DNA of 64,000 bases from Actinomycetota bacterium. Its GTDB lineage: Bacteria; Actinomycetota; Actinomycetes; S36-B12. Position 1 is the stretch's first letter. The number at the start of each line of letters is the position of its first letter. The stretch spans positions 1-64,000 of the forward strand of contig CANFQC010000001.1 in the NCBI GenBank assembly GCA_947449035.1, written 5' to 3'. The position numbers and the translations under genes are program-made. Under the pieces are notes generated by a model. That model was not told the DNA's origin and did not search any database. It was given only the letters and a program-made list of their open reading frames with translations. Below are positions 20,811-36,562 of this stretch, in pieces.

Positions 20811-20811
20811 C

Positions 20812-22083
20812 GTGGCTGACCAGATCGACGTGATCTTCCCCGACCTCCTCGGGCTTACTCACGGCAAGACAGTTCCCACGCACCGTGTCGATCATCCGAC
20901 TCACTACGCCATCACCGTGATGGTGCAAGGTCTCGATCTCGAGTTCCTCGATACGCCGACCTACTCCACCAGTGCCGGCTTCCCTGACATGGAAGCACGT
21001 ATCGACTCCGCAACTTTGCGCCCGTGGATAAACGGTCGCCAGATCGCACTATCGAATCTCTACCGCACCAATGGCGACGAACTTCCGCTCGACGGACGCC
21101 GCCAGCTACGCATGATCTGCGATCAGTGGGCAGAGCGTGGCTATACGCCGATGACGGGCTTCGAGATGGAGTTCTTCCTACTCGAGAGCTTGAAGCCGCT
21201 GGTGAAGATGCCTGTGCCCGATCACCGCGTGTACGGCATCGGTGCCGGCGCTGATCCGAGCGGCACGCTTGAAGCTGTTGTCGAACTGGCCGAGATGGCT
21301 CGCCTGCAGGTCGAGGGCGTCAACGCCGAATTCACGCCCAGCCAGGTCGAAGCTGCCCTGCACTACCAGCCTGCACTCGAGTCAGCCGACTGCGCGCTGC
21401 TCTTCCGCGAGCTCGTGCGTCTTTCTGCGCGTGAGCGTGGAGTCGACGCGACTTTCATGGCCCGCCCGTTCGCCGATGCAGTCGGCAATGGCATGCACGT
21501 GAACATGAGCCTCGCAAACGCCAAGGGCGAGAACATGTTCGCAAGCCTTGATGACCCGCTGGGCATCACCGACCTCGCTCGTCATTTCATCGCCGGCCTG
21601 CTTGCACACCACGAAGCACTCGCGGCGTTCGCAGCACCGACCGTTAACTCGTACAAGCGCCTGACCCCCGGCATGCTCAGTGGCTACTGGGCCAACTGGG
21701 GTCTCGACAATCGCATCGCCACCGTGCGCGTTCCCGGACAGCGCGGTGCAACCACGCGAGTCGAGCACCGCATGGCTGACGGAAGTGCCACACCTCATCT
21801 ACTCAGCGCCGCACTCTTCGCGGCCGGCATGCACGGCGTTGACGAGAAGCTCGAGCTCCCCGCACCGCAGCTAGGTGATGCCGATGAGGCACCGAACACT
21901 GATCGCCATACGCCGCATTCACTTGCGGAGTCGCTCGACGCGCTCGAGGCAGATACCAAGCTGCAGTCGTACCTTGAGAAGGATCTCGTCGAGGTGTACG
22001 TCGGACTCAAGCGCGATGAGTGGAAGCGCTGGGTGTCGGCGGTCACTGATTGGGAGCAGGGCGAATACGCCCGCGTGTACTAA
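20812..22083 (+). CDS. Glutamine-synthetase-like gamma-glutamyl ligase (GS2)
   Basis: A 423-residue GS-fold protein. The GTG at 20812 directly follows the NicX-like stop; a longer in-frame extension to 20581 lies inside that gene and is not protein-like. Active-site segments are GFEMEFFLL (metal Glu pair, about residue 118), NAEFTPSQVE, GNGMHVNMS, NSYKRLTPG, DNRIATVRVPG and TRVEHR. The second His of the canonical GMHxHxS is Asn here, and there is no adenylylation tyrosine, so ordinary ammonia-dependent glutamine synthesis is unlikely. Co-transcription with the ring-cleavage pair suggests ligation of glutamate to an amine produced or used in that pathway. Confidence 0.82.
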   Translation: MADQIDVIFPDLLGLTHGKTVPTHRVDHPTHYAITVMVQGLDLEFLDTPTYSTSAGFPDMEARIDSATLRPWINGRQIALSNLYRTNGDELPLDGRRQLRMICDQWAERGYTPMTGFEMEFFLLESLKPLVKMPVPDHRVYGIGAGADPSGTLEAVVELAEMARLQVEGVNAEFTPSQVEAALHYQPALESADCALLFRELVRLSARERGVDATFMARPFADAVGNGMHVNMSLANAKGENMFASLDDPLGITDLARHFIAGLLAHHEALAAFAAPTVNSYKRLTPGMLSGYWANWGLDNRIATVRVPGQRGATTRVEHRMADGSATPHLLSAALFAAGMHGVDEKLELPAPQLGDADEAPNTDRHTPHSLAESLDALEADTKLQSYLEKDLVEVYVGLKRDEWKRWVSAVTDWEQGEYARVY

Positions 22084-22788: not shown

Positions 22789-22812
22789 CGGTTGTTTGGG
22801 CCCAAACGATCC
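22789..22812. promoter_or_regulatory. Candidate operator, site D
   Basis: CGGTTGTT-TGGGCCCA-AACGATCC has the same 8-8-8 architecture as the other sites and a perfectly symmetric centre (GTTTGGGCCCAAAC). It matches 17 of 24 positions of the pattern AGATCGTT-CGGGTCCG-AACGATCT. It covers the expected -35 region of the promoter whose -10 is probably TAGGCT at 22825-22830, a repressor-like position. Confidence 0.6.
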
Positions 22813-22838: not shown

Positions 22839-23648
22839 ATGGCGAACTCCCAGGGCTTCTTACCCCCCTTCACTCCCGATGGCGGCTCGGCTCTCATCCC
22901 CGAGATGCCCTGGCACTACTCCGGCACCTTGATGACCGTCGAGTACCGCACTGACCCGGCCAACGTGCGCGCAATTCTTCCTCCTGACCTCGACCTGGCA
23001 CCCGAGGATCCCGGAGCCGTCGCGTTCATTTGGGCCGACTGGCAGTCGTGCAGCACTGGTGGCGCTGAGCTGCTTGACCCTTCACGTGCCCAGTACCTCG
23101 AAGCCTTCGTCGTGGTGCGCTGCTCGTACCAGGGCGTCACCTACAGCCGCTGCGTGCTGATCTGGGTCACCACTGATTTCGCCATCGGTCGCGGCTGGTT
23201 CCAGGGTTACCCCAAGAAGCTCGGCAGCGTCTTCGTGACTCGCCCGTACAACCGAGGCAAGGCTGCCCCGCGCATCGCCGAGGGTGGCACCTTCGGTGCG
23301 TCGCTCGCCGCCTACGACCACCGTCTCGCCAGTGCGAAGGTCACCCTGCGCGAGCCAGCCCCCTCGAACGGCTTCGTCAACGGTCACAAGATGCTGCATC
23401 ACCGCGTGATGCCGTCAATGGTGCCCGGTGCCGGTCTTTCGCTAAATCAACTCGCCACGATGGGTGGTGTCGATCTCGATCTCGGCCAGCCGTGGATCGG
23501 CGATGCTGAGCTCACCTTGCATGACTCGCCTTGGGATCAGCCCGCGTCGTTGCTGCCTATTGACGAGATCATTGCGGGTTACTACTGCGAGGTCGGGACG
23601 ACTTTCCACGGCGGCACGCTGCTCGCCGACAACTCCGCTGCGATCTAA
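22839..23648 (+). CDS. Acetoacetate decarboxylase-family protein
   Basis: A 269-residue protein of the acetoacetate decarboxylase (ADC)-like fold. The segment RGWFQGYPKKLGS (about residues 118-130) matches the position of the Schiff-base lysine in ADC (ExxKK-type motif). Family members decarboxylate beta-keto acids or catalyse related aldol/dehydration chemistry through a lysine imine. I start at ATG 22839 because the frame upstream runs through operator site D and the promoter. It probably forms a two-gene operon with the LLM oxidoreductase 12 bases downstream. The substrate is unknown. Confidence 0.78.
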   Translation: MANSQGFLPPFTPDGGSALIPEMPWHYSGTLMTVEYRTDPANVRAILPPDLDLAPEDPGAVAFIWADWQSCSTGGAELLDPSRAQYLEAFVVVRCSYQGVTYSRCVLIWVTTDFAIGRGWFQGYPKKLGSVFVTRPYNRGKAAPRIAEGGTFGASLAAYDHRLASAKVTLREPAPSNGFVNGHKMLHHRVMPSMVPGAGLSLNQLATMGGVDLDLGQPWIGDAELTLHDSPWDQPASLLPIDEIIAGYYCEVGTTFHGGTLLADNSAAI

Positions 23649-23660
23649 CAAGAGCACAGC

Positions 23661-24593
23661 ATGAAGCCAAAGCTCGTCAGCGTTCTCACCGAGAATTGGA
23701 CGATGACCGATCCGCGCGATGTGCGTGGCATCGTGCGCATGGCGCAGGAGGCCGAAGACGCTGGCTTCGACATGATCATGATCAGCGATCACGTGCTGCT
23801 CGGCCCGTCGGCCGGTTCCGAAGGTCGTATGGAGAATCCGCGTGATTACGCGATGCCGGGCAATCAGGATCCCGCGACCGAATGGCCGTCGTCGATCGTG
23901 ATGCTCAGCGCCATCGCGGCTGCCACCTCTCGAATCCGTGTCGGCGGCATTGCACTTATCGCTCCGCTTCGTCATCCACTCGCCCTCGCCAAGGATCTCG
24001 CTACTCTCGACCTTCTCGCCGAGGGTCGGCTCGTCATCCAGCCGACGGTGAGCTGGCATAAGGATGAATACGACGCCCTCGGCGTCCCGTTCACCAAGCG
24101 CGGCAAGATCCTTGACGAGGATCTCGAGATCTGGCGGCGAGTGTGGGCCGAATCCCCCGCCTCGTTCCACGGCGAGTTCTTCGACTTCACCGATGTCTAC
24201 GTCGACCCAAAGCCGCGCACGCCTAAGGGCCCGGCGATGTGGTTCGGTGGCGAGAGCCTGACTGATCCAGTGCTCAATCGCCTGGTGAAGTACGGCAGCG
24301 GTTACCACCCACTTGGCCGACCGAAGGCCGACGATGTTGCCAAACTGCGTGCCGGTCTGGAATCTGCAGGCCGATCGATCGATGAGATCGAGATGGTCGG
24401 CGGCACCCGCGTCGAGTTCCCCGATGCCCATTCGGTTGCACCTCTACCTGAGGCGCTGAAAGGCATTCCGGCCCAGCTCGAGATGGGCTTCAGCACCTTC
24501 TGCATCAAGCCGTCGATCTTCATCGACGAGCGCGACAAGCACGCAGAGTTCTGCCGCGAAGTGGTGCGTCGAGTAGACGCACTCACCTCATAG
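23661..24593 (+). CDS. LLM-class (F420/FMN-dependent) oxidoreductase
   Basis: A 310-residue luciferase-like TIM-barrel protein. The N-terminal EAEDAGFDMIMISDHVLLGP and the middle ATSRIRVGGIALIAPLRHPLALAKDLATLDLLAEGRL are hallmarks of the F420-dependent TIGR03619-type branch. Such enzymes perform hydride transfers with F420 or FMN-dependent monooxygenation. F420 use would fit an actinomycete but is not proved by sequence. It is co-directional with the ADC-like gene and convergent with purU, from which only 9 bases separate it. Confidence 0.87.
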   Translation: MKPKLVSVLTENWTMTDPRDVRGIVRMAQEAEDAGFDMIMISDHVLLGPSAGSEGRMENPRDYAMPGNQDPATEWPSSIVMLSAIAAATSRIRVGGIALIAPLRHPLALAKDLATLDLLAEGRLVIQPTVSWHKDEYDALGVPFTKRGKILDEDLEIWRRVWAESPASFHGEFFDFTDVYVDPKPRTPKGPAMWFGGESLTDPVLNRLVKYGSGYHPLGRPKADDVAKLRAGLESAGRSIDEIEMVGGTRVEFPDAHSVAPLPEALKGIPAQLEMGFSTFCIKPSIFIDERDKHAEFCREVVRRVDALTS

Positions 24594-24602
24594 CCAGATC
24601 AA

Positions 24603-25448
24603 CTACGAGAAGATCACCGTGCGATGGCCGGTGAGCATCACTCGATCAGCGCCATAGAGCTGCACTGCACGTGCAAGCACTAGACGCTCGACATCTCGAC
24701 CGATTTCTGCCAGATGCTCGGGATCTTGCGCATGAGTCACGCGGGCGACGTCTTGCTCGATGATCGGGCCTTCGTCGAGTGCTGCTGACACGAAGTGAGC
24801 GGTGGCACCGATGAGCTTCACTCCGCGCGCATACGCCTGGTGATACGGGCGGGCGCCCTTGAAGCCCGGTAGGAACGAGTGATGGATGTTGATCGCGCGA
24901 CCCTCGAGCTCAGCGCAGAACTCATCAGAGAGCACCTGCATGTAGCGGGCTAGCACGACCGCATCGATCGAGTACTCAACCATGAGCTCGCGCACCTTCT
25001 GCTCCTGCGCCTGCTTGGTCTCCGGCGTAACCGGCAGGTGCACGAATGGAATGCCATGCGCGGCGGCGATCGGTGCGCAATCGGGATGGTTGGAGACGAT
25101 GATCGGGATTTCGACGTGCAGTTCGCCTTGCTGGCGGCGGTAGAGCAGATCGACAAGGCAGTGATCCTGCTTCGAGACCATGATCAGAATGCGGCGCTGG
25201 TCGTGCACGTGACGCAGAGTCAACGTGGGTGAGAGATGAGCGGTTGCTTCATCGATGGCGCGGCGCACCACTACAAGATCATCAGTGGCGGTCTCGAACC
25301 GCGTACGGCTGCAGAACAGATTCTCGCTCGGCTCGGTGAACTGCGCCTGCTCGAGAATGTTCGCGCCGATTGAGAGCAGCGCGCCAGTGATGCCGTGGGT
25401 GATGCCGGGGCCGTCAGGGCACCGCAGGGTGAGGATGAAGTTATGCAC
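24603..25448 (-). CDS. purU: Formyltetrahydrofolate deformylase
   Basis: It hydrolyses 10-formyl-THF to THF and formate. The N-terminal ACT domain (FILTLRCPDGPGITHGITGALL) is followed by a formyltransferase fold with the catalytic Asn/His in INIHHSFLPGF and Asp in LDEGPIIEQD. At 281 residues it is of normal length. It starts 3 bases after the GS3 stop, so the two are one operon. PurU is often linked to demethylation pathways that load one-carbon units on THF, which hints that the amine handled by GS3 may carry a methyl or formyl group; this is inference. Confidence 0.93.
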   Translation of the reverse strand: MHNFILTLRCPDGPGITHGITGALLSIGANILEQAQFTEPSENLFCSRTRFETATDDLVVVRRAIDEATAHLSPTLTLRHVHDQRRILIMVSKQDHCLVDLLYRRQQGELHVEIPIIVSNHPDCAPIAAAHGIPFVHLPVTPETKQAQEQKVRELMVEYSIDAVVLARYMQVLSDEFCAELEGRAINIHHSFLPGFKGARPYHQAYARGVKLIGATAHFVSAALDEGPIIEQDVARVTHAQDPEHLAEIGRDVERLVLARAVQLYGADRVMLTGHRTVIFS

Positions 25449-25451
25449 CCT

Positions 25452-26801
25452 CTAATAATCCTCTAGGTACTCCGCGATCTCCCACGCGGTCACCTCTCGC
25501 GTGCTTGGATCCTCGACTGCTTCCTCATAGCGACGTACTTCGTCACGCTTGAGGGTCTCGAAGGCCTGCACGAAGGGCTCGCCCAGGATGTCGACCAAGA
25601 AGCTGTCGGCGCGCATGGCGTTGAGCGAATCGGTGAGGGTCATGGGCAGCACCGGGCGACTCTCGTCGGTGTACGACCAGCCCTCGGAGTGCGGCGGGCA
25701 GTCGAGCTGACGACGAAGGCCATCGAGTGCTGCAGCGAGGATCACGGCGATCATCACGTACGGATTCGCGGCGCCGTCGCCTATGCGCACCTCGAGTCGA
25801 GTGCCTGCGCCGCGCTCCGGTGGGATGCGAATGAACGTGGTGCGGTTGTCGTAGCCCCAGCTTGAGCGATGCGGTGCCATGGTGTCGGGGCCGAGGCGCT
25901 TGTATGCGTTGATGGTCGGGTTGCAGAAGGCTACGAGTGCCGGCGCGTGTTCGAGAATGCCGGCCATCATGCGCCGTGCAATCAGCGACAGTTCGCCGTC
26001 AGGCTCGCCCATCAAATTCGTGCCGTTGACGTCGGTGACCGAGAAGTGCAGGTGGAAGCCGCTGCCGCCCTCGTCGCCCCACGGCTTGCCGATGAACGTG
26101 CTCATGATTCCGCGACGGGCAGTGATGTCCTTGATCGCGGTCTTGAACAAGAAGGTGCGATCGGCTGCATCGAGTGCATCTCCGTGCCAGAGGTTGATCT
26201 CATACTGCGACGGGCAGAACTCGTGATTGCCGGCGAATGCACCGATGTTGAGTCGATCGAGCATGCGCAGCAGATGCAGGAAGGTTCCGTCGGGATCGAC
26301 GAGTGAACCAGTCTGGTACACGCGGCCGGTCTTGTTGAGAATGCGCTCCCACTCGCCGTTCGGCTTGTGAGCGAAGTAGAACTCGAGCTCGGGGCCCACA
26401 ACTGGGAGAAGGCCGAGGGCCTTGTACTCCTCGATGATGCGGCGAAGCAGCGAGCGCGGTGCAATGGCGTTCGGGGATCCGTCGGGCTCATCGATATCCG
26501 CGATCGCGTAGGCCACGCCTTCCTCCCACGGAAGTGGGCGGATGGTGGAGGCATCGAGACGCGACACCATGTCGGAGAGACCGTCCTGGAGACTGCCGTG
26601 ACCGTCGAGCACGTCGCCGCGGGTAGTGGTTGTCCAGGTGGCCTGGCAGAAAGCGGGGCCATGCCCGGCGGCACGCTCGAGCTGAGAGACGGTGATGTCC
26701 TTCGAGCGCGGCAGGCCGAGCACGTCGGGCCACAGGAGCCTGAGGATGTCGATGCCCTGGGTCTCGAGGTCCCTGCGGACGTCTGCCAGATCCTGCTGCA
26801 T
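25452..26801 (-). CDS. Glutamine-synthetase-like gamma-glutamyl ligase (GS3)
   Basis: A 449-residue GS-fold protein. Metal and ATP residues are well preserved: GPELEFYF (about residue 143), NHEFCPSQYEINL, GGSGFHLHFS, NAYKRLGPDTMAP, DNRTTFIRIP and TRLEVR. It is nearer to canonical GS than GS1 and GS2 but lacks an adenylylation-type tyrosine motif, and its context is catabolic. A gamma-glutamyl-amide synthetase (GlnA4/PuuA or gamma-glutamylmethylamide synthetase type) is likely. The gene is divergent from GATase 2 across operator site A, and purU follows it. Confidence 0.85.
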   Translation of the reverse strand: MQQDLADVRRDLETQGIDILRLLWPDVLGLPRSKDITVSQLERAAGHGPAFCQATWTTTTRGDVLDGHGSLQDGLSDMVSRLDASTIRPLPWEEGVAYAIADIDEPDGSPNAIAPRSLLRRIIEEYKALGLLPVVGPELEFYFAHKPNGEWERILNKTGRVYQTGSLVDPDGTFLHLLRMLDRLNIGAFAGNHEFCPSQYEINLWHGDALDAADRTFLFKTAIKDITARRGIMSTFIGKPWGDEGGSGFHLHFSVTDVNGTNLMGEPDGELSLIARRMMAGILEHAPALVAFCNPTINAYKRLGPDTMAPHRSSWGYDNRTTFIRIPPERGAGTRLEVRIGDGAANPYVMIAVILAAALDGLRRQLDCPPHSEGWSYTDESRPVLPMTLTDSLNAMRADSFLVDILGEPFVQAFETLKRDEVRRYEEAVEDPSTREVTAWEIAEYLEDY

Positions 26802-26836
26802 GTGCTGCCCCTTGTCGCCGTTTCCAGTATCGTCAG

Positions 26837-26860
26837 AGATCGTTCGGCCCCCAACGATCT
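26837..26860. promoter_or_regulatory. Candidate operator, site A
   Basis: AGATCGTT-CGGCCCCC-AACGATCT has perfect 8-base arms (9 with the flanking G/C pair) and an 8-base spacer. It lies in the divergent promoter between GS3-purU and GATase 2, 36 bases from the GS3 start and 58 from the GATase 2 start. It matches 21 of 24 positions of the best site at 28975-28998. Confidence 0.75.
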
Positions 26861-26917
26861 CGAAATCCTATGTCGAATCGTGCTCCCGCGGGGCCAGTTT
26901 GGGAGAGGATTTGCCGC

Positions 26918-27649
26918 ATGCGGGTTCTATTCATGCAGCACGATGCCTTCAGCCCGCCCAGGCTTGTCTCTGAACGCTTTGCCGAACTCGGCTTCGAGGT
27001 GGTGGAGGAACTCATCGTCGAGGCCGCGCATTACGACACCCCTGGCATCGTGACCTACGAGTTTCCCGATCCCACCACCTTCGATGTCATCGTGCCGATG
27101 GGCTCGCCGTGGGGTGCCTGGGATGACTCAACCATCGGTTCCTGGCTGCTTCCCGAGCTCGACTGGCTGCGCGATGCCGATGCGGCCGGTGTTCCCGTCA
27201 TGGGTATCTGCTTTGGCGGTCAACTGCTGGCTCGTGCACACGGCGGCGGAGTCGGGCGAGCGCCTGATTGCGAAATCGGCTGGACAAGCGTGTGGAGCGA
27301 TAACGAAGAACTCGTGCCGCCCGGGCCGTGGTTCTCCTTCCACTACGACCGCTGGGCTCTGCCGCCGGGTGCCACCGAGATTGCGCGCACTTCGCGGGCC
27401 TCGCAGGCTTTCACTCTGCGTAAGAACCTGGCACTTCAGTTTCACCCTGAACTCACCGGAGACATGCTCCAGGGCTGGTACACCTCACCGGGTGATGGAC
27501 GCGACCTGATCATCGCTGACGGTCAGGATCCCGACGTGCTCCTGGCTTACTCATATGCGGAGGAACCGAAGGCGCAGGTGCGGGCGCATGCTCTCGTCGA
27601 CAGCTTCCTCAGTAACGTCGCCGGGCTCGGGCATCTCGTGCGCGACTGA
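26918..27649 (+). CDS. Class I glutamine amidotransferase-like hydrolase (GATase 2)
   Basis: A 243-residue class I GATase homologous in layout to GATase 1 (both start RVL-(L/F)-x-x-H). The nucleophile is in GICFGGQLLARAHGG and the His/Glu pair in LQFHPELT. I start at ATG 26918, preceded by GGGAGAGGA; the upstream frame runs through the operator region. It is divergent from GS3, repeating the GS/GATase pairing seen at 9173-11218. The probable role is hydrolysis of the gamma-glutamyl bond made by GS3, releasing glutamate. A hairpin terminator follows the gene. Confidence 0.85.
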   Translation: MRVLFMQHDAFSPPRLVSERFAELGFEVVEELIVEAAHYDTPGIVTYEFPDPTTFDVIVPMGSPWGAWDDSTIGSWLLPELDWLRDADAAGVPVMGICFGGQLLARAHGGGVGRAPDCEIGWTSVWSDNEELVPPGPWFSFHYDRWALPPGATEIARTSRASQAFTLRKNLALQFHPELTGDMLQGWYTSPGDGRDLIIADGQDPDVLLAYSYAEEPKAQVRAHALVDSFLSNVAGLGHLVRD

Positions 27650-27712: not shown

Positions 27713-28957
27713 TTACGCCTTCTTGACCGGCAGACGCTTGAAGCCATGCACGAAGTTGCTGTAGACGTAGTCGGGCTTGCCGTTGGGCACCAGGTCGACG
27801 TCACGCGAGAGAAGATCCTCGAACATGATCTGGATCTCAAGGCGTGCGAGCGAGTTCCCGAGGCACATATGCGGGCCGCCGCGGCCGAAGGACATGTGCT
27901 CATTCGGGTGACGCTGCACGTCGAACTTGTACGGGTCAGCGAAGATTTCCGCATCGCGGTTGCCGGAGCCGAACCACACGACGACCTTGTCACCGGCCTT
28001 GATCTCCTGGCCATTGAGCACCGTCTCGTGACGCGCGGTGCGGCGGAAGTGATGCACCGGGCTGGCCATGCGCAAGAACTCCTCGACCGCCCACGGGATC
28101 AGTTCGGGCTTCTCGCGAAGGATCGCAAGCTGATCGGGGTTAGCCATCAGGTTGTTCATGGTGTGCGTGATGGTGTGGCGAGTGGTCTCGTTACCTGCGA
28201 TGACGAGCAGTAGGAAGTAATTGCGGAAGTCACGTGCGTCAATGGCGATGCCGTCAGACGGCTCCGTGTTGATCAACACTGACACAAGATCGGTACCGTT
28301 GCCGCCCTTGCGACCCCAGGCCAGCTCGTAGCCGTACTTGAATACCTCGAGTGCTGCAGGCGAACGGAACGGAAGGTCCCGGTACATCTCGCTCTCGGGG
28401 CTGTCGGCGAGAACATCGGCATGCTCGGGATCCTGATTGCCGACCATCTTGTTGCCCCACTTGATCAGCTGGGGGATGTCAGACTCAGGAACGTCGAGCA
28501 ATTGCGCGAGCACGCGGATCGGGAAATCCGCCGCAACATCGGCCACGAAGTCGAACTGATCCTTCGCGAGCGCACGATCGAGGGTGGTCGCGGTGATGCC
28601 GCGAAGGAAGGTCTCGTAGCCGGCGAGTGCACGCGGGGTGAACTGCGGCTGCAGCATCTTGCGCAGGGCGCGATGGCGGGGGCCGTCGGTCTCCAGGATC
28701 GACTTGCGGATCTCGAGCTGGCGAGTGTCGAGCTCCTCGAGATTGGCGGCGCCAATCTCGCTGGAATAGATGTCGGTGTTGCGGAGCACGTCGACGATGT
28801 CGTTGTAGCGGGTGACCGACCAGAAGCCCGAGTTCGGTGCCTCTTCCACGTTCCAGTGGACTGGGTCGTTCTTGCGGAGGTCTTCGAAGACCTGCCAGGG
28901 GGCGCCATCAGCGAAGAGGCTCAGGTCGGCCAGGGTGACGTCGGTCAGCGTGCTCAT
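27713..28957 (-). CDS. Cytochrome P450 (P450-2)
   Basis: A 414-residue class I P450. The I-helix is VIAGNETTRHT, ExxR is EEFLR, and the heme loop is FGRGGPHMCLGNSLARLE (Cys near residue 362). It resembles P450-1 in the AGNETTR motif but differs clearly in sequence. It stands alone between two terminated units, with site B 18-41 bases upstream of its ATG. Sites B and C share the core GGGTCCGAAC, so P450-2 and the ferredoxin/reductase operon at 30395-35001 are probably co-regulated, which makes that pair its likely electron source. Confidence 0.93.
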   Translation of the reverse strand: MSTLTDVTLADLSLFADGAPWQVFEDLRKNDPVHWNVEEAPNSGFWSVTRYNDIVDVLRNTDIYSSEIGAANLEELDTRQLEIRKSILETDGPRHRALRKMLQPQFTPRALAGYETFLRGITATTLDRALAKDQFDFVADVAADFPIRVLAQLLDVPESDIPQLIKWGNKMVGNQDPEHADVLADSPESEMYRDLPFRSPAALEVFKYGYELAWGRKGGNGTDLVSVLINTEPSDGIAIDARDFRNYFLLLVIAGNETTRHTITHTMNNLMANPDQLAILREKPELIPWAVEEFLRMASPVHHFRRTARHETVLNGQEIKAGDKVVVWFGSGNRDAEIFADPYKFDVQRHPNEHMSFGRGGPHMCLGNSLARLEIQIMFEDLLSRDVDLVPNGKPDYVYSNFVHGFKRLPVKKA

Positions 28958-28974
28958 GAATCCTCCGGAACTAA

Positions 28975-28998
28975 AGATCGTTCGGGTCCGAACTATCT
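28975..28998. promoter_or_regulatory. Candidate operator, site B (best match)
   Basis: AGATCGTT-CGGGTCCG-AACTATCT is a nearly perfect 24-base palindrome (11-base arms around GT, one mismatch). It lies between divergent P450-2 and marR. Next to it, TACTGT/TACAGT (29002-29007) can serve as -10 boxes for either direction. For P450-2 this puts the operator at and just after the transcription start. Confidence 0.75.
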
Positions 28999-29110
28999 GA
29001 GTACTGTAGACCGATGTGGCGATTCATGTGAAGTGTTGCCAGACTTAGGGTCATAATTCCTGACCACGTGCCTCACTAGTCCGCACGATTCACCTCACGA
29101 CGGAGGCTAG

Positions 29111-29602
29111 ATGCCCGGGCAGCACACGCTCGACGAGACTGAGAGCCAGGTCGCCACGCGCCTGGCCGGTATGAATCTCGACTTCGAGGCCATGGCCGTC
29201 ACGGCAAATCTCTTCCGCGCCGCCAATGCTGCCCGCAATCACATGGAGCGCACGGTGCTCGCCAAGTCGAACCTGACCTGGACCGCCTTCGTGGTGCTCT
29301 GGGTGGCCTGGATCTGGGAGTCAGCCGAGACCCGTGAGATCGCCTCTGAAGCGGGTGTCTCCAAGGCCACGCTCAGCGGTGTACTCACCACCCTCGAGGG
29401 CCGCGGCTTCGTCGAGCGTAAGCGCGGGGAGAAGGACGGTCGCCTGGTGACGGTCGAGTTGACCGCCTCGGGCAAGCGACTGATGAAGAAACTGTTCCCA
29501 GAGTTCAACAAGTCGGAGCGTCACGTTGTCCGTGGCCTGACCTCTGCCGAGCAGCCAGTCGCCGCCGACATCCTGCGCCGCATCACCCAAGCCACGAATT
29601 AG
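29111..29602 (+). CDS. MarR-family transcriptional regulator
   Basis: A 163-residue winged-helix regulator. The recognition region is REIASEAGVSKATLSGVLTTLEGRGFVERKRGEKDGRLVTVELTASG, the MarR helix-turn-helix and wing. GGAGG precedes the ATG. MarR proteins act as dimers on palindromes and respond to aromatic or other small ligands. Operator site B lies about 110 bases upstream, in the gap shared with P450-2. The protein sits centrally among sites A, B and C, so it is a leading candidate to bind them. It is convergent with GATase 3, overlapping it by 4 bases. Confidence 0.9.
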   Translation: MPGQHTLDETESQVATRLAGMNLDFEAMAVTANLFRAANAARNHMERTVLAKSNLTWTAFVVLWVAWIWESAETREIASEAGVSKATLSGVLTTLEGRGFVERKRGEKDGRLVTVELTASGKRLMKKLFPEFNKSERHVVRGLTSAEQPVAADILRRITQATN

Positions 29603-30294
29603 CTGAGCGACGCCTCCCCCACGAGGCGCTTCATGAGCTGCATCTGATGCTCATCTGCGGCGTAGGTGTCCTCCGGATGCCACTGCACACCCACAGTCCA
29701 GGCCTTCGCATCGGCCACGACAGCCTCAACGACACCATCGGCTGACATGCCGACCACGGTCAGGCCGTCACCCACCCGCTCGATCGCCTGGTGGTGGTAA
29801 CACGAGGCCGTCACGTGGGAATCGGTGATGCCCAGGGCATCTGAGCCCTCGCTCAATGCCACGTCATGCACCACGTGTCGGTGGTGATCGGGCATGTCAA
29901 CTACGAGGGTGCCGCCCGTGACCACGTTGAGCACGTGCAGACCGCGGCACACCGCCAGCATCGGGATCCCCTGCTCGAGGCAGTAGCGGGTGAGGGTGAA
30001 GTCGGATTCGTCCTGCATGTCGTCCATGTCGTACAGGGTGGGGTCGTCGTCGCCCTTGCCGTAACGAGTCGGACGAATATCGCCGCCGCCCGGCAGAAGT
30101 ACGCCCTCGAATCCGCGCAGTCGCGCTCCCCAGTCGAGGGCATCGGCGTCATTGCCGGGCAGCAGGGTCATCGGGTCGCCACCGGCCGCCCATACGTACT
30201 CGAGCAGTGCCCGCGAGCTCACCAGGCCGCGGTAGCGCAGGGCACTGGCAGACTCGGTGAATCGGCCCAGGATCGCAATGCGCGGACGGGTCAC
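29599..30294 (-). CDS. PuuD-like gamma-glutamyl-amine hydrolase (peptidase C26, GATase 3)
   Basis: A 231-residue class I GATase of the C26 branch. LLPGGGDIRPTRYG, the nucleophile AVCRGLHVLNVVTGGTL and the GVQWHPED box match gamma-glutamyl-gamma-aminobutyrate hydrolase PuuD. The reaction there is hydrolysis of gamma-Glu-GABA to glutamate and GABA; the substrate here is likely an analogous gamma-glutamyl acid. The GTG at 30294 has GGAGG five bases upstream; the longer frame to 30654 enters the divergent aldehyde dehydrogenase gene and is rejected. It is divergent from the hpaE operon across site C. Confidence 0.87.
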   Translation of the reverse strand: MTRPRIAILGRFTESASALRYRGLVSSRALLEYVWAAGGDPMTLLPGNDADALDWGARLRGFEGVLLPGGGDIRPTRYGKGDDDPTLYDMDDMQDESDFTLTRYCLEQGIPMLAVCRGLHVLNVVTGGTLVVDMPDHHRHVVHDVALSEGSDALGITDSHVTASCYHHQAIERVGDGLTVVGMSADGVVEAVVADAKAWTVGVQWHPEDTYAADEHQMQLMKRLVGEASLS

Positions 30295-30325
30295 AATTCC
30301 TCCAAAGGCTGGTGGCCGAACCCGT

Positions 30326-30349
30326 ATTCCGTTAGGGTCCGAACGATCT
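30326..30349. promoter_or_regulatory. Candidate operator, site C
   Basis: ATTCCGTT-AGGGTCCG-AACGATCT lies between divergent GATase 3 and the hpaE operon. The right arm is perfect and the left arm keeps CGTT. It matches 20 of 24 positions of the pattern AGATCGTT-CGGGTCCG-AACGATCT. Confidence 0.65.
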
Positions 30350-30394
30350 AGAATTGCGATCAGCATACTTTCCGAACAACGAATGCGAGCACAG

Positions 30395-31855
30395 ATGTCG
30401 ACTGCCACCGTTGCGGGCGTCACGGTTGATACCCGGCACTGGATCGGGGGCCAGCGGGTGGCCTCGGCCGAGACCTTCGACAGCGTCTCCCCCATCGATG
30501 GCACCGTCATCGCCCAGGTCAGCCGCGGCGGTCGCGCCGAGGCTGATGCTGCCGTGGCAGCCGCAAAAGCCGCCTTCCCTGCCTGGGCCAAATTGAGCCC
30601 GCAGGAGCGAGGCGCGATCTTGCACAAGGTCGCCGACAACATCGAGGCACACATCGAGGAACTCGCTCAGCTCGAGACCCACGACAACGGCTCACTGCTT
30701 CGCTCACACCGTCGCGGCGTCATGCCCCGCGTCGTCATGAACATCCGTTACTTCGCCGACTACGCGATGAACGATCTCAAGCACCCCGAGTTCGAGACCC
30801 GCGGTCACACCAACCACGTCACCTGGGATCCCTCCGGCGTTGCGGTGATCATCACCCCGTGGAATGCCCCGTTGATGCTGGCCACCTGGCGCATCGGTCC
30901 GGCCCTCGCCTCCGGCGACACCGTCGTACTGAAGCCACCGGAGTGGGCACCGCTTACTGCCTCGTACTTCGCGCAGCTCGCACACGAGGCCGGCCTGCCT
31001 GCCGGCGTCTTCAACGTCGTGCAGGGCTTCGGCGTCGAGGCCGGCGCACCGCTCACTGAGAATCCCGATGTCTCGCGCATCTGCTTCACCGGCTCGGTGC
31101 CGACCGCGAAGGTTGTGGCCCGTGCAGCGGCAGAGAACTTGATCCCGTGCTCATTCGAGCTCGGTGGCAAGAGCCCGACAGTGATCCTTGACGACGCCGA
31201 CCTCGATCTCGCAGTCGAACTCGCCATCGAGCAGTACGACAACGCCGGGCAGGTCTGCCTCGCCGGCACTCGTCTGCTCGTGCAGAAGGGCATTGCCGAG
31301 GCCTTCGCCGCGAAGTTCGCAGAGCGTGCCGCGCAGATCAAGCAGGGTGACCCGCGTGATGAGGAGACCCAGATCGGGCCAAACATTCACCTCAAGCACG
31401 TTGAGCGTGTTACCGGCTTCATCGATCGCGCAAAGGCGGACGGTGCGACCATCGCCTACGGCGGCGAGGTCAACACCGCACTCGGCACTCACTACATCAA
31501 GCCGACACTCGTCATCGATGCACCGGTCGGCAGCGAGATCCTCACTCAGGAGGTCTTCGGTCCGGTTCTCACAATGCAGACCTTCGATACCGATGAGGAA
31601 GGCCTGGCACTCGCCAACGGCACTGAGTTCGGTCTCGCAGCCTGCGTCGTCAGTGGCAATCGCGAGCGCGCCGAGGCTTTCACGAAGTTCCTCGTCGCCG
31701 GCACGATCTGGGTGAACTGCTTCTTCGTGCGTGATCTCTCGGCACCGTTTGGTGGCTCGAAGCGCTCGGGCATCGGCCGCGAGGGCGGCCTGTGGTCCTT
31801 CGACTTCTACGCCGACGTCAAGAACACCGTGTTCGCACCGAACGGATGGAAGTAG
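30395..31855 (+). CDS. hpaE: HpaE-like 5-carboxymethyl-2-hydroxymuconate semialdehyde dehydrogenase
   Basis: A 486-residue NAD(P)-dependent aldehyde dehydrogenase. The oxyanion Asn is in ITPWNAP, the Glu in FELGGKSP and the catalytic Cys in NAGQVCLAGTR. The C-terminal VRDLSAPFGGSKRSGIGREGG is characteristic of HpaE, which oxidises the homoprotocatechuate ring-cleavage semialdehyde. I start at ATG 30395; the frame upstream runs through the promoter and site C. An HpaD-type dioxygenase and an FAH hydrolase follow at once, in pathway order. A gamma-glutamyl aldehyde dehydrogenase role (PuuC) is a less likely alternative. Confidence 0.85.
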   Translation: MSTATVAGVTVDTRHWIGGQRVASAETFDSVSPIDGTVIAQVSRGGRAEADAAVAAAKAAFPAWAKLSPQERGAILHKVADNIEAHIEELAQLETHDNGSLLRSHRRGVMPRVVMNIRYFADYAMNDLKHPEFETRGHTNHVTWDPSGVAVIITPWNAPLMLATWRIGPALASGDTVVLKPPEWAPLTASYFAQLAHEAGLPAGVFNVVQGFGVEAGAPLTENPDVSRICFTGSVPTAKVVARAAAENLIPCSFELGGKSPTVILDDADLDLAVELAIEQYDNAGQVCLAGTRLLVQKGIAEAFAAKFAERAAQIKQGDPRDEETQIGPNIHLKHVERVTGFIDRAKADGATIAYGGEVNTALGTHYIKPTLVIDAPVGSEILTQEVFGPVLTMQTFDTDEEGLALANGTEFGLAACVVSGNRERAEAFTKFLVAGTIWVNCFFVRDLSAPFGGSKRSGIGREGGLWSFDFYADVKNTVFAPNGWK

Positions 31856-31860
31856 GAGTC

Positions 31861-32760
31861 ATGGGTGAGGTAGTCGCAGCCGGTCTGCTGTCGCATGTGC
31901 CGACCATCATGCTGCCGAAGGAAACACGGCTCGAGCTGAACGAGGGCAAGGAGATCTCCCTCGTTCCTGCTCTCGAAAAACTGCGCCGCGATGTCTTCGA
32001 CACCTACGACTACGACACCGTTCTTCTGCTCGACTCGCACTGGTTCACAACAGTCGAGTTCATCGTCACGGCTCAGGATCGTCGCTCGGGTCTCTTCACG
32101 GCCGAGGAATTGCCACGTGGCATGTGCCGCATTCCGTATGACTGGAAGGGCGATCCCGAGCTCGCGCACCTGATAGCCGCCGAGGGTGCGCCGCACGACA
32201 CCTGGATCACCGCCAATGCTGATCACTTCCTGCCGATCTACTACCCCTCCGTCAACATCTGGAGCTACCTCGGCAAGGGCAATCCCGATAAGTCCTGGAT
32301 CTCAGTGAGCGTGTGCCAGACCGCCGACACCGAGGATTTCCTGCGCGTCGGCCGAGCGATCGGCGAGGCCATCCGCAAGAGCGATCGCAAGGTGATCATC
32401 ATCGCCACCGGTTCCCTCTCGCACACGTTCTACCCGCTACGCGAACTGCGCAAGCACGAGGCCAGCGATCCCTCGCACATCTTCAGCGCCGAGGCGCGGG
32501 AGGCCGACTACCAGCGCCTTGAGTGGTTCAAGGAAGGTCGTCACGATCTCGTGCTCGACACAATGCCTGAGTTCCTCAAGGTACGTCCCGAGGCGAAGTT
32601 CGCGCATTACGTGATGATGGCCGCTGCGCTCGGCGAGAACGATTTCTCCGCGCCTGGCGTACAGATCAGCGACTATGAGAACTCCATTGGCACGAGCCAG
32701 GTGCATGTCTGGTTCGATCGACCCGACAGCGGCTGGACAACTCGAAGGGCAGAAGCGTGA
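31861..32760 (+). CDS. hpaD: HpaD-like 3,4-dihydroxyphenylacetate 2,3-dioxygenase (class III extradiol, LigB fold)
   Basis: A 299-residue class III extradiol ring-cleavage dioxygenase. It aligns along its length with enterobacterial HpaD/HpcB: SHVPTIML at the N-terminus, LLDSHWF near residue 60, ATGSLSHTF near 180, and SIGTSQVHVWF near the end. The His residues in SHVP and SHW and a downstream Glu are the family's Fe(II) ligands. It opens the ring of 3,4-dihydroxyphenylacetate or a similar catechol between C2 and C3. The ATG at 31861 follows AGGAG by 3 bases. The stop overlaps the FAH gene by GTGA. Confidence 0.87.
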   Translation: MGEVVAAGLLSHVPTIMLPKETRLELNEGKEISLVPALEKLRRDVFDTYDYDTVLLLDSHWFTTVEFIVTAQDRRSGLFTAEELPRGMCRIPYDWKGDPELAHLIAAEGAPHDTWITANADHFLPIYYPSVNIWSYLGKGNPDKSWISVSVCQTADTEDFLRVGRAIGEAIRKSDRKVIIIATGSLSHTFYPLRELRKHEASDPSHIFSAEAREADYQRLEWFKEGRHDLVLDTMPEFLKVRPEAKFAHYVMMAAALGENDFSAPGVQISDYENSIGTSQVHVWFDRPDSGWTTRRAEA

Positions 32761-33635
32761 CCGAATACCGAAGGATCCTCCTCGAGGGCGCACCCGTGCA
32801 GGTCGTGCGCGATGGCGAGAATCTCGTCGCAGGCGATGGTCGCGTAGTCGCGATCACCGATGCAGTCCATCTGCCCCCGGTCGAGCCGACCAAGATCATC
32901 TGCGTCCACCTGAACTACGACTCGCGTACTCAGGAGTTCATGACCAAGCTGCCCCCGGCGCCCACCTACTTCCACAAGCCGATCACAGCACTCAACTCGC
33001 ACAACGGTGCAGTCGTGCGACCGAACGGTTGCAAGTGGCTGAACTATGAAGGCGAGATCGTCATCGTCATCGGCAAGACCTGCCGCAATATCTCGCCCGA
33101 TGAGGCGGGTGAGTACATCGCCGGTTACACGATCGGTAACGATTACGGCCTGCACGACTTCCGCGACACTGATGCCGGCTCAATGCTGCGCGTCAAGGGT
33201 GCCGACACCCTCGCACCGATCGGCCCGGGCCTGGTCACCGATTGGGACTTCCACAACAAGCGCATCCGGACCATCGTGAACGGCGTCGTGAAGCAGGACT
33301 CCACCACCGCCGAGATGGAATGGGACATGCATTACCTGGTCGCCGATATCGCGCGCACCATCACGCTCGTGCCCGGCGACATCCTGTTCTCCGGCACCCC
33401 GGCGTTTTCGCGCACCGTCTACCCCGGTGATGTTGTCACCGTTGAGGTTGAGGGTTTGGGCTCACTGACCAACGTGATCGTGGAAGGCCCCACCCCCATT
33501 CGCACTGACGTCGGAGCTCAGCCGACCGAGAGCGAAGAGGTCATCTCGACGGCCAAGGGTGGCGACTGGGAATTCCGCGGCATCCGAACGCCTTCGAAGG
33601 ATCTCTACCCGTCAACCGTTGAGGAGAAGAAGTAA
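32757..33635 (+). CDS. Fumarylacetoacetate hydrolase-family isomerase/decarboxylase (HpaG-like)
   Basis: A 292-residue protein of the FAH fold. The metal-binding set is visible in NYEGEIVIVIGK (Glu-x-Glu) and GYTIGNDYGLHDF (Asp), and GDILFSGTPAF is the family's late conserved loop. In the homoprotocatechuate pathway HpaG decarboxylates and isomerises the product of HpaE; in other meta pathways FAH proteins hydrolyse or tautomerise keto acids. The order hpaE-hpaD-this gene supports the HpaG role. The start is GTG at 32757, overlapping hpaD. The last base overlaps the ferredoxin ATG. Confidence 0.87.
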   Translation: MTEYRRILLEGAPVQVVRDGENLVAGDGRVVAITDAVHLPPVEPTKIICVHLNYDSRTQEFMTKLPPAPTYFHKPITALNSHNGAVVRPNGCKWLNYEGEIVIVIGKTCRNISPDEAGEYIAGYTIGNDYGLHDFRDTDAGSMLRVKGADTLAPIGPGLVTDWDFHNKRIRTIVNGVVKQDSTTAEMEWDMHYLVADIARTITLVPGDILFSGTPAFSRTVYPGDVVTVEVEGLGSLTNVIVEGPTPIRTDVGAQPTESEEVISTAKGGDWEFRGIRTPSKDLYPSTVEEKK

Positions 33636-33823
33636 TGATCAAGGTCACCATCGACATGGATAAGTGCCAGCACTACGGCCAGTGCTGCTTCGAGGCACCT
33701 GATGTCTTCTCCCTTGATGGCGCCGGACACATCGTCTACGTCGCTGAGGTCGCAGACGATCGCCGCGCCGATGTCGAGAGCGCCGCTGACGTCTGCCCGA
33801 TGCAGGCCATCGAGATCTCCTAG
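33635..33823 (+). CDS. P450-type [3Fe-4S] ferredoxin
   Basis: A 62-residue ferredoxin. The cluster motif is C-x5-C (CQHYGQC, residues 11-17) with a distal Cys in DVCPMQAIEI; the usual fourth Cys is replaced (Tyr at the centre of CxxYxxC), the pattern of single-cluster ferredoxins that serve actinobacterial P450s. It lies 2 bases before a ferredoxin reductase gene, so the two form an NAD(P)H to P450 chain. No P450 gene is in this operon; P450-2, with a related operator, is the likely partner. Confidence 0.92.
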   Translation: MIKVTIDMDKCQHYGQCCFEAPDVFSLDGAGHIVYVAEVADDRRADVESAADVCPMQAIEIS

Positions 33824-33825
33824 TC

Positions 33826-35001
33826 ATGGCCGGCGTCGTCATCATCGGCGCGGGCCTCGGAGGCCTGCGCGTTGCCGAGACACTGCGCGCTTCGGGTTAC
33901 GAGGGAGAGGTCACCATCGTCGGTGACGAAATCCACCTGCCGTACAACCGACCGCCGCTGTCCAAGGAAGCCCTCGCGGGCGGGGTTGAGGTCGCAGATC
34001 TCGAATTCCGTCGCAAGGCTCACGTTGATGACGTCACCTGGAAGCTCGGCTCACCTGCAGTGACCTCCAGCATCAAGGAGGGCACCGTCACACTCGCAGA
34101 CGGGACCGTGCTGCAGTTCGATGCACTTGCTGTTGCCGCTGGCATTCGCCCGCGTCGCCTGCCCATCCCTGGGCCGCAAGCCGGTCGCGTCGTATTGCGC
34201 ACCGCCGAGGATGCACGCGAACTTCGGGCGGCACTTGTTCCCGGCGCCAAGGTGCTCATCATGGGCGCTGGTTTCATTGGCTGCGAGGTTGCTGCTACCG
34301 CCCGCAAAGTCGACTGCGAGGTGAATATCGTCGCGCTCGATGCCGAACCGATGATCCGCCCGCTCGGCGCCGAACTCGGTGCGGGCATGCGCCGGCGCCA
34401 CGAGGCCAATGGCGTGAACTTCTACCTTGGCCGCACCATCACCAGCTTCAACGGCACAGACCATGTCGAGTCCGCGACCCTCGATGACGGCACTGTGCTC
34501 GCCTGCGACATCGTGGTGGAAGCCGTGGGGTCGATGGCCAATGTTGAGTGGCTCGATGGCAATGGCCTAGACCTCGGCGATGGACTCTCGGTTGACGACG
34601 CGATGATCGTGGAGGGCACGACCAATGTCGTGGCCGTCGGTGACCTCGCTCGTCATCACAACGCACTGTTCTCAGGGCCGAAGCGACGCATCGAGCACTG
34701 GAACATGCCGACTGAGACCGGCAAGCGTGCCGGCCAGACTCTCGCCGCTCTCCTTGCCGGCGACGAAGTGTCGCAGGCGCCGTTCTCAGCGATGCCCTCG
34801 TTCTGGTCGGATCAGTACAGCCACAAGATCCAGTCCTTCGGCATGCCGGGCAATGCCACTCGAATTGAGATCGTCTCGGGCAATCCCGACGAGGCCTGCA
34901 TCGCCGAGTACTTCGACGAGTCGGGCCTGGTCGGTGTCATCGGAATCGACAAGACCTCCGAACTCGCCCCGTATCGCAAGCTGCTCATGGAACGCGGCTA
35001 A
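33826..35001 (+). CDS. NAD(P)H:ferredoxin reductase (rhodocoxin/putidaredoxin reductase type)
   Basis: A 391-residue FAD flavoprotein. The FAD site is VVIIGAGLGGLRVAETL at the N-terminus, followed by YNRPPLSKE. The NAD(P)H site is VLIMGAGFIGCEVAA near residue 145, and the second FAD motif NVVAVGDLARH near 265. The C-terminal domain (SDQYSHKIQSFG) matches rubredoxin/ferredoxin reductases of oxygenase systems. It transfers electrons from NAD(P)H to the adjacent [3Fe-4S] ferredoxin. It is the last certain member of the hpaE operon. Confidence 0.92.
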   Translation: MAGVVIIGAGLGGLRVAETLRASGYEGEVTIVGDEIHLPYNRPPLSKEALAGGVEVADLEFRRKAHVDDVTWKLGSPAVTSSIKEGTVTLADGTVLQFDALAVAAGIRPRRLPIPGPQAGRVVLRTAEDARELRAALVPGAKVLIMGAGFIGCEVAATARKVDCEVNIVALDAEPMIRPLGAELGAGMRRRHEANGVNFYLGRTITSFNGTDHVESATLDDGTVLACDIVVEAVGSMANVEWLDGNGLDLGDGLSVDDAMIVEGTTNVVAVGDLARHHNALFSGPKRRIEHWNMPTETGKRAGQTLAALLAGDEVSQAPFSAMPSFWSDQYSHKIQSFGMPGNATRIEIVSGNPDEACIAEYFDESGLVGVIGIDKTSELAPYRKLLMERG

Positions 35002-35020: not shown

Positions 35021-36562
35021 ATGGCATCGAATCAGTCACCCGAGGGCGTCTGCTTCCCTGCCGGTGGTGATGGCGAACGCAGTACCAGTGCGACAGGCCG
35101 AGCGATCTTCGCCGACTGCGTCCGGGCGATCGATCCCGAACTGGCTGCTCGAATCGAGCACACGCGTGACTGGCGCTCGGGGTATTTGACTCCGCTACGC
35201 GACATCATCATTAGCGCCACCTCGTCATCGGCTGCTGCACTCAGTGTTGCCGAGCAGGGTCTCGCATCTGCTCATCGCCGATTTCGCGTCACCCGAAATG
35301 GCGTAGAGCTGTCTCTGTCGGAGGCGATGAACTCGTTCACCTCCCCGAGTTTTGCCTCGGTAGAGGTGCGTGGCCATGCTGCACGACAGAAGGACCTGTC
35401 GATTCCGTATCGCGGCCACCGACTCTTCGGCTCTGAACTGCGCACGCAGATCGACACCTGGGTCAAGGACGGCATTGCCGAGCCGGGCTTCGCTGCGGCC
35501 ATGCATGCAGTGCTCGATAACCCCGACTGGCTTGACCTGGGCGATGTCGATCTTGCGATTCTCGGTGCCTCGGCCGAAATGGGGCCGACGCGTTCACTGC
35601 TGCGCTGGGGCGCGCGCATTCATGCCGTCGATCTTCCACGGCCAGCACTGTGGTCGACGTTGATTCAGACCACGCGCAGCACCGCGGGCGCCATGCGCAT
35701 TCCCATCGCTCTTGACGCACACGGGCAGCCACCATTCGTCGTCGGTGGGCTCGTGCACCAGGAGGACGACGCCACTGTTGCGCAACATGCCGGGGCGAAT
35801 CTGCTCACGCAAGCACCAGAGATTCGCACGTGGCTCGATGTCATCGACCAGCCCTTCGTGCTGGGCACCTACGCATACGCCGACGGAGCTACGCACGCTC
35901 TGCTCTCCATGGCTGCGGACTCAATTGCCGATGATCTTGTCACTCGCCGTGACGACATCACCCTCGCCTACCTTGCTACGCCCACCGACGTGTTCATGGT
36001 GCCGGTTGACGCCGTGACCGAGGCTCAACGTCGTTGGGATTCCCGCGGCTTCGCGGCCCTCTTCCAGGCACCGCTGCGCATGGCCGGACAGTTTGAACCG
36101 AACTATCCCGATGTGTACGTCACCCCCGAAGGCCGCGAGATCGGCATCAATGACTCGCTCATCCCCCAGCAAGGTCCGAACTACGCACTTGCCAAGAGAA
36201 TTCAGCGCTGGCGTGCCCTGTACTCGCGCGCGCAGGGAGTTCCAGTCTCACTGAATCTGGCTCCTGCCACTCGTACTCAGTCGGTGATCAAGAATCGCGC
36301 GCTCTCCGCAGCGTACGCCGGCGCCGGCCGGTTCGGCGTCGAGATCTTCGAGCCGGCCACCTCGACCGTGCTGATGGCCGCACTACTCGTGCACGACCTG
36401 CGCAATCCTGCTTCTGTCGCCAATCCTGATACTCCCCTCGCCAATCCAATGGATCAGTTCAGCGCACTCGCAAATCACGGCGGCCTTTGGCGCACCGCTT
36501 ACTCCCCACGCTCCGTGCTCGGCATCGCCGCACTGATGGGGCTGCTGGACTCACGATCATGA
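35021..36562 (+). CDS. Conserved protein of unknown function
   Basis: I do not recognise a named family. The 513-residue product is largely soluble, with no signal peptide. A Rossmann-like segment (DLAILGASAEMGPTRSLLRWGARIHAVDLPRP, about residues 185-216) looks like a nucleotide-binding strand-loop-helix. Later parts contain hydrophobic Ala-rich helices (SAAYAGAGRFGVEIFEPATSTVLMAALLVHDL). It starts 19 bases after the ferredoxin reductase stop and overlaps the L,D-transpeptidase start as ATGA. It could belong to the catabolic operon or to an envelope unit with the transpeptidase; the overlap favours the latter. Confidence 0.7.
   Translation: MASNQSPEGVCFPAGGDGERSTSATGRAIFADCVRAIDPELAARIEHTRDWRSGYLTPLRDIIISATSSSAAALSVAEQGLASAHRRFRVTRNGVELSLSEAMNSFTSPSFASVEVRGHAARQKDLSIPYRGHRLFGSELRTQIDTWVKDGIAEPGFAAAMHAVLDNPDWLDLGDVDLAILGASAEMGPTRSLLRWGARIHAVDLPRPALWSTLIQTTRSTAGAMRIPIALDAHGQPPFVVGGLVHQEDDATVAQHAGANLLTQAPEIRTWLDVIDQPFVLGTYAYADGATHALLSMAADSIADDLVTRRDDITLAYLATPTDVFMVPVDAVTEAQRRWDSRGFAALFQAPLRMAGQFEPNYPDVYVTPEGREIGINDSLIPQQGPNYALAKRIQRWRALYSRAQGVPVSLNLAPATRTQSVIKNRALSAAYAGAGRFGVEIFEPATSTVLMAALLVHDLRNPASVANPDTPLANPMDQFSALANHGGLWRTAYSPRSVLGIAALMGLLDSRS

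Follow-up and report, generated by a model that had tools for sequence, protein, structure and literature searches.

A MarR-type regulon in a freshwater actinobacterium that probably serves the catabolism of a gamma-glutamylated arylethylamine

We analysed the first 64,000 nucleotides (the window) of contig CANFQC010000001.1 (assembly GCA_947449035.1), from the 2.36-Mb, 97.7% complete genome of a freshwater Actinomycetota bacterium. The window carries a gene cluster in which a meta-cleavage operon resembling the homoprotocatechuate (Hpa) genes is accompanied by a cytochrome P450 (P450-2) and by putative genes for amine glutamylation and deglutamylation. The comparison covered eighty loci from GTDB genomes, centred on the HpaD-like gene, and linkage was counted over the 50 clusters with at least 7 kb on either side of it. 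The genes and operators are as follows.

22790..22811: operator D, 5' of the ADC gene (start codon 22839); GGTTGTTTGGGCCCAAACGATC, exact match
22839..23648, plus strand: ADC-superfamily protein (PF06314), predicted pyruvate aldolase-dehydratase (hydration and retro-aldol cleavage of a 2-oxo-3-enoate); 47 of 50 clusters
23661..24593, plus strand: LLM-family flavin oxidoreductase, 3' of the ADC gene; 15 of 50 clusters
24603..25448, minus strand: PurU formyltetrahydrofolate deformylase (above the PurU cut-off), 3' of the glutamine-synthetase-like gene with a 3-bp gap; 4 of 50 clusters, only some of the freshwater ones
25452..26801, minus strand: glutamine-synthetase-like (GS-like) ligase, predicted gamma-glutamyl-arylamine synthetase; 47 of 50 clusters
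26838..26859: operator A, between the GS-like and GATase genes; exact match, position kept in freshwater relatives
26918..27649, plus strand: class-I glutamine amidotransferase-like protein (GATase), possible gamma-glutamyl-amide hydrolase; 18 of 50 clusters
27713..28957, minus strand: P450-2, CYP125/CYP124-like cytochrome P450 (best model CYP125MRCA, 360 bits), predicted ring hydroxylase; 43 of 50 clusters
28976..28997: operator B, P450-2/MarR promoter region; GATCGTTCGGGTCCGAACTATC, exact match
29111..29602, plus strand: MarR-family regulator (closest model HpaR), predicted binder of operators A to D; linked in 37 of 50 clusters
29599..30294, minus strand: PuuD-like gamma-glutamyl-GABA hydrolase (Peptidase_C26; GABA, 4-aminobutyrate); 40 of 50 clusters
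~30329..30349: operator C, PuuD/HpaE promoter region; CCGTTAGGGTCCGAACGATCT, exact match
30395..31855, plus strand: HpaE-like aldehyde dehydrogenase (best model HpaE), predicted ring-fission semialdehyde dehydrogenase; 48 of 50 clusters
31861..32760, plus strand: HpaD-like LigB-superfamily extradiol dioxygenase (PF02900; HpaD_Fe, 129 bits)
32757..33635, plus strand: FAH-family protein resembling the C-terminal half of HpaG (HpaG-C, 196 bits; residues 224-425 of 1gtt), predicted decarboxylase (and isomerase); 48 of 50 clusters
33635..33823, plus strand: CxxYxxC [3Fe-4S]-type ferredoxin (Fdx), 62 aa; 40 of 50 clusters
33826..35001, plus strand: FAD/NAD-dependent ferredoxin reductase (FdR); 40 of 50 clusters

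Translational coupling joins the HpaE-, HpaD- and HpaG-like genes to those of the ferredoxin and its reductase, the junctions being a 5-bp gap (HpaE/HpaD), a 4-bp overlap (HpaD/FAH), a 1-bp overlap within TAATG (FAH/Fdx) and a 2-bp gap (Fdx/FdR), and the P450-2 gene is divergent from that of the MarR regulator. This order, with its coordinates and tight spacing, had been given in a preliminary description of the DNA and holds. The limits drawn there, 27713 to 35001, do enclose these genes, but the unit is longer, because the same operator also fronts the genes at 22839 to 27649.

The operator pattern GTTNGGNNCCNAACNATC was found by pattern matching at exactly four places in the whole genome, all of them in the window, where they front the ADC gene, the GS-like/GATase pair, the P450-2/MarR pair and the PuuD/HpaE-HpaD-FAH-Fdx-FdR genes; the reversed pattern, used as a control, gave 0 matches, and in the shuffled window 0.01 operator matches were expected against 2 found. 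Sites B and C belong to this genome-unique set of exact matches, so that the operator type proposed earlier as common to P450-2 and the HpaE operon is indeed common to both. In 28 freshwater-type loci the core palindrome occurred 65 times, and 64 of these 65 sites lay no more than 260 bp 5' of a gene of the cluster. Each of six control patterns searched in these loci gave 0 to 11 matches, with at most 1 in such an upstream position. Across the relatives, operator sites move with their genes through rearrangements. The MarR protein is predicted to bind operators A to D, and the locus is probably part of a MarR-type regulon that includes the putative genes for amine glutamylation and deglutamylation. 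Two one-mismatch operators, near a cysteine-synthase-like gene on contig C9 and inside an open reading frame (ORF) on contig C37, were judged to be chance matches. Three Kineosporia-type loci (L017, L019 and L022) have an HpaD orthologue of ~70% identity without the other cluster genes, yet an operator-like palindrome stands 35 bp upstream of it; with HpaD alone, these loci are uninformative on the substrate.

Besides the genes counted in the list, an APC permease is linked in 35 of the 50 clusters and a second aldehyde dehydrogenase (ALDH2) in 31. Compact operons with the same gene set occur in Nonomuraea and Streptomyces; in Nonomuraea L061 and L068 the genes Fdx-FdR-ADC-HpaE-HpaD-FAH-APC-ALDH2-PuuD all have one orientation, and P450-GS diverges from them. 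Four records titled Bifidobacterium breve or Acidobacteria bacterium (L002, L015, L021 and L041) hold freshwater- or soil-actinobacterial versions of the cluster on their contigs and are probably mislabelled or misbinned.

The ferredoxin has the motif C11-QHYGQ-C17...CP, in which a non-cysteine residue replaces the fourth ligand (the cluster type is assigned from sequence only). P450 and the Fdx-FdR pair occur together in 40 of the 50 clusters and are both absent from 7; P450 is present alone in 3 and the pair alone in none (Fisher p 1e-6, if the loci are taken as independent). Loci L073, L075 and L078 lack the P450 trio but have GS, ADC, HpaE, HpaD, FAH, ALDH2 and PuuD, so that the P450 seems to have been added to a core of ring-cleavage genes. 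We consider it very likely that P450-2 works with this ferredoxin and reductase in the present pathway, and its most likely task is to hydroxylate the ring before the HpaD-type dioxygenase acts, as is suggested by the shared operator, the conserved linkage, the joint absence and the lack of HpaB. The preliminary description had placed the same P450 step in a homoprotocatechuate or 4-hydroxyphenylacetate (4-HPA) setting, and it is this setting, not the step, that loses its support. Its remark that P450-2 has no redox partners of its own is correct for the adjoining genes; in the genome as a whole there are 8 P450 genes and only 2 ferredoxins of the Fer4_15 family. N- or O-dealkylation by P450-2 may also be considered, the purU neighbour being the only specific pointer to it. 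Five freshwater loci (L013, L016, L020, L024 and L025) keep purU beside the GS-like gene, a pairing that could mark demethylation giving one-carbon units.

The other Fer4_15 ferredoxin (43971-44153, plus strand) lies directly 3' of a 443-aa ORF (42613-43944), which by eye looks like a NuoF/SLBB flavoprotein and, with this ferredoxin, is possibly a second electron supply for P450s. An extra P450 stands in or beside the operon in L044, L054 and L065 (with own ferredoxin) and in L028, L029 and L041, which might allow a second hydroxylation, for example of phenethylamine.

The homoprotocatechuate reading of the operon itself is probably mistaken. The HpaD-like protein reaches 129 bits (cut-off of TIGR02298, 316), the HpaE-like protein 510 (TIGR02299, 638; its L073 counterpart scores 540) and the FAH protein 196 and 101 (TIGR02303/TIGR02305, 276 and 229), so that the family matches are clear and, judged by these scores, canonical Hpa membership is not supported. 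Putative glutamylation and deglutamylation genes are present in addition, and an ADC-family protein stands where HpaH and HpaI would be expected. By alignment, the HpaD-like protein is a LigB-superfamily extradiol dioxygenase whose residues matching the ligands (H12, H60, E244) and the acid-base residue (H188) are invariant in 17 sequences, and its structure model is nearest to Acinetobacter HpaD (8iq8, TM-scores 0.77/0.81), followed by 2-aminophenol dioxygenases. The absence of HpaB, for which the preliminary description had proposed a search, was confirmed, as PF03241 has no match in the genome; among the HpaD-bearing relatives searched none has HpaB above the cut-off, G029 giving one sub-threshold match, and the search control was positive in 4 genomes. 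The only strong HpcH_HpaI match is a CitE-like protein (159 bits), with one further weak match.

The Puu-type proteins, too, lie below their cut-offs (PuuA 243.8 of 650 bits, PuuC 580.7 of 850, PuuD 70.5 of 266); PuuC is nevertheless the best-matching model for the second aldehyde dehydrogenase and PuuD for the hydrolase. No recurrent unmatched family of the kind expected for a PuuB amine oxidase was found within ~10 kb of HpaD, the only range over which it was sought. The nearest structures to the ADC protein are those of MppR (4jm3, 179 bits) and of 4zbo/6eej (152 bits). MppR residues R148, Q152 and K156 correspond to R117, Q121 and K125, which are near-invariant in the relatives, while E283 of MppR is not kept, and the protein is predicted to be a pyruvate aldolase-dehydratase. 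The ALDH2 proteins of other clusters are most PuuC-like (L073, 558 bits). Their orthologue in this genome lies on another contig (C8) and has 59% identity to the ALDH2 of the Sphaerisporangium operon, the next aldehyde dehydrogenase having 45%. A one-mismatch operator, GATCGTTAGGGCGCGAACGACC, stands ~46-66 bp before its ATG; with three such loci in the 2.36-Mb genome beyond the window, the chance of one falling within 260 bp 5' of this gene is ~3 in 10,000. We read the gene as a trans member of the regulon; its identification through the Sphaerisporangium operon is independent of the operator. A similar palindrome precedes the ALDH2 orthologue of a genome of the same genus (G001), and a close ALDH2 was found in 7 of the 40 surveyed genomes, all 7 belonging to the 16 that bear HpaD. 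GabT is also present, above its cut-off.

In the homoprotocatechuate route, proximal cleavage is followed by oxidation, decarboxylation, hydration and retro-aldol cleavage, by which a CH2COOH side chain yields succinic semialdehyde besides pyruvate. Mapped onto the same carbons, a CH2CH2NH-Glu side chain gives gamma-glutamyl-4-aminobutanal, the substrate of PuuC, and by this mapping GS, ADC, PuuC and PuuD become parts of one route. The GS-like ligase would join glutamate to the amine, which would block a later cyclisation of the semialdehyde onto it; P450-2, with electrons from the operon's Fdx and FdR, would then hydroxylate the ring to a catechol, which the HpaD-like dioxygenase would cut proximally (2,3). 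The HpaE-like dehydrogenase would oxidise the resulting semialdehyde and the FAH protein would decarboxylate the product; the ADC-family protein would hydrate the 2-oxo-3-enoate and split it by retro-aldol cleavage into pyruvate and gamma-glutamyl-4-aminobutanal. The PuuC-type aldehyde dehydrogenase, encoded on another contig here and within the operon elsewhere, would convert the latter to gamma-glutamyl-GABA, from which PuuD would release GABA and glutamate. We favour the view that the regulon serves the catabolism of a gamma-glutamylated arylethylamine, most probably tyramine via dopamine, with chemistry, step order and substrate all deduced from the genes. A glutamylated amine is the substrate with good confidence; that it is an arylethylamine of the tyramine or dopamine type is somewhat less secure, though still the better guess. 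That this is an undescribed and widespread actinobacterial route, in which the glutamyl group protects the amine through P450 hydroxylation and meta-cleavage, ADC stands in for HpaH and HpaI, and the end products are pyruvate, GABA and glutamate, we regard as an evenly balanced proposition.

The nature of the amine is touched upon by linked decarboxylases. Nine freshwater clusters (L007, L011, L013-L016, L018, L020 and L021) have a gene for a group II pyridoxal-phosphate decarboxylase 3' of FdR, with a remnant in L025, and a different group II decarboxylase stands after FAH in L035 and after P450-2 in L037; a decarboxylase in L010 was not counted, being a glutamate decarboxylase. Their nearest solved relatives are 3,4-dihydroxyphenylalanine (DOPA), tyrosine and tryptophan decarboxylases and also other group II enzymes, e.g., desferrioxamine decarboxylase, and this linkage hints at amines derived from aromatic amino acids, the substrates of such enzymes not being readable from sequence.

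If P450-2 merely replaced HpaBC in converting 4-hydroxyphenylacetate to homoprotocatechuate, a conventional Hpa meta-cleavage would follow, and the HpaD-, HpaE- and HpaG-like proteins, a regulator with HpaR as its best model and the missing HpaB would all agree with this. We nevertheless find it improbable, since the three enzymes are far under the curated cut-offs, the GS, PuuD and PuuC-type genes of the regulon would be of no use if the substrate were an acid, and the sole strong HpcH_HpaI-family match is CitE-like. Even less credence is due to the idea that Fdx and FdR serve several of the eight P450s while P450-2 acts on some other compound and has only the regulator in common with the operon. 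The ratio of eight P450 genes to two Fer4_15 ferredoxins does make sharing likely, but P450-2 and Fdx/FdR are present or absent jointly, and in Streptomyces, Nonomuraea and Kibdelosporangium a P450-2-GS operon diverges from one that begins with Fdx.

The same glutamyl-protected logic could also act on another substrate, such as a benzylamine- or phenylpropylamine-type compound, phenethylamine, a methylated catecholamine, or tyrosine or DOPA; the last two would give gamma-glutamyl-glutamate semialdehyde, and aniline-type arylamines fit least. GS-like ligases can be broad, NpaA1 accepting many anilines and naphthylamines (PMC11335346), the second P450 of some clusters fits two hydroxylations, and a demethylation that sets one-carbon units free would agree with the PurU gene seen in some of the freshwater clusters. 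This alternative is unlikely, though less so than the two above: a two-carbon side chain ending in GABA is the better match to the linked decarboxylases and to enzymes of the PuuC and PuuD types, and in most clusters there is a single P450. We gave a low rank to a plain aniline pathway, as it leaves PuuC/PuuD, ADC and the decarboxylases unexplained.

Several observations weigh against the tyramine/dopamine route itself. All of its enzymes score below the named-model cut-offs, and their specificities may thus differ; likewise, the linked decarboxylases do not disclose their substrates. The genome studied here has no orthologue of the linked decarboxylase (best 33%), and the amine would therefore be taken up. 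When the HpaD tree is considered, only ~4 independent P450/Fdx-FdR contrasts are left (3.5 concordant on average, none discordant; sign test p ~0.125). The ALDH2 operator is weak and turns up again only in G001, not in five other, more distant family members, and 9 of the 16 HpaD-bearing genomes, including G002 of the same genus, have no close ALDH2 orthologue. A dedicated 5-carboxymethyl-2-hydroxymuconate isomerase (HpaF) was not identified, PF02962 giving no match in a search whose control was also silent.

Further genes of the window deserve mention. A 513-aa ORF (35021-36562, plus strand), 20 bp 3' of FdR, has no Pfam or NCBIfam match and a structure model of pLDDT 41; it is kept beside the cluster in several freshwater relatives at 62-93% identity. 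Between 8037 and 14217 there is another GS-like/GATase pair, accompanied by a P450 (12305-13540), an alcohol dehydrogenase and a maleylpyruvate isomerase-like protein of the mycothiol type; these genes may form a further glutamyl-amine pathway. A third GS-like gene lies at ~20803-22083.

If the proposed route is true, it would amount to a complete line from genes to metabolites for biogenic arylethylamines, both in freshwater actinobacteria, which are abundant, and in the Streptomyces of soils with their relatives, and would explain why a GS-like ligase and a gamma-glutamyl hydrolase are kept in a meta-cleavage operon. It would also give a catabolic role to ADC-superfamily aldolases and a metabolic one to a P450 whose redox partner is known, and it suggests functions for many genes likely annotated merely as glutamine synthetase, acetoacetate decarboxylase or 4-HPA genes. 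We found no published description of a gamma-glutamyl-tyramine/dopamine route or of the combination of P450, extradiol dioxygenase and GS in a search that left most subscription papers and preprints outside.

Parts of the route have counterparts in known systems. With the Hpa pathway (HpaBCDEFGHI) it has in common a LigB-type extradiol dioxygenase, a semialdehyde dehydrogenase, an HpaG-like FAH protein and a MarR/HpaR-like regulator, whereas P450/Fdx/FdR here take the place of HpaBC and the ADC-family protein that of HpaH/HpaI, GS, PuuC, PuuD and an amine permease are added, and the Hpa-like proteins fall short of the curated cut-offs. The reaction of MppR is a condensation of pyruvate with an aldehyde, and in the meta-cleavage of phenol by Saccharolobus solfataricus MppR-like ADC proteins are strongly induced and were proposed for the aldolase step, with FAH-family proteins for decarboxylation (PMC7820114); that route shares these two protein types but is archaeal and without amine chemistry. 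In the Puu pathway of putrescine (PuuA-PuuD), as in the GlnA4 ethanolamine pathway by which Streptomyces degrades a gamma-glutamyl amine (PMC6529630), an amine is glutamylated, an aldehyde is oxidised to the acid and the gamma-glutamyl bond is hydrolysed; here the aldehyde would stem from ring fission and retro-aldol cleavage, not from oxidation of an amine or alcohol, and the cluster has no recurrent PuuB-like oxidase. L-DOPA 2,3-dioxygenase of lincomycin-type biosynthesis likewise performs 2,3-extradiol cleavage of a catechol with an amino side chain, and in that system the unprotected amine closes to a pyrroline ring (PMC12311729); glutamylation would block this cyclisation and keep the product catabolic, a protecting-group logic that would set catecholamine catabolism apart from the pyrroline-forming chemistry. 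Glutamylation before ring oxidation has its precedent in 1-naphthylamine degradation (NpaA1, PMC11335346) and in that of aniline (AtdA1/TdnQ), where a GS-like ligase tags the aromatic amine. The ligase found here is present and co-regulated, and its arylamine activity is predicted from sequence. In those systems, however, the ring loses its tagged amine through the action of a multicomponent dioxygenase, whereas here a P450 would hydroxylate the ring and the side chain would keep its glutamyl-amine while the ring is cut.

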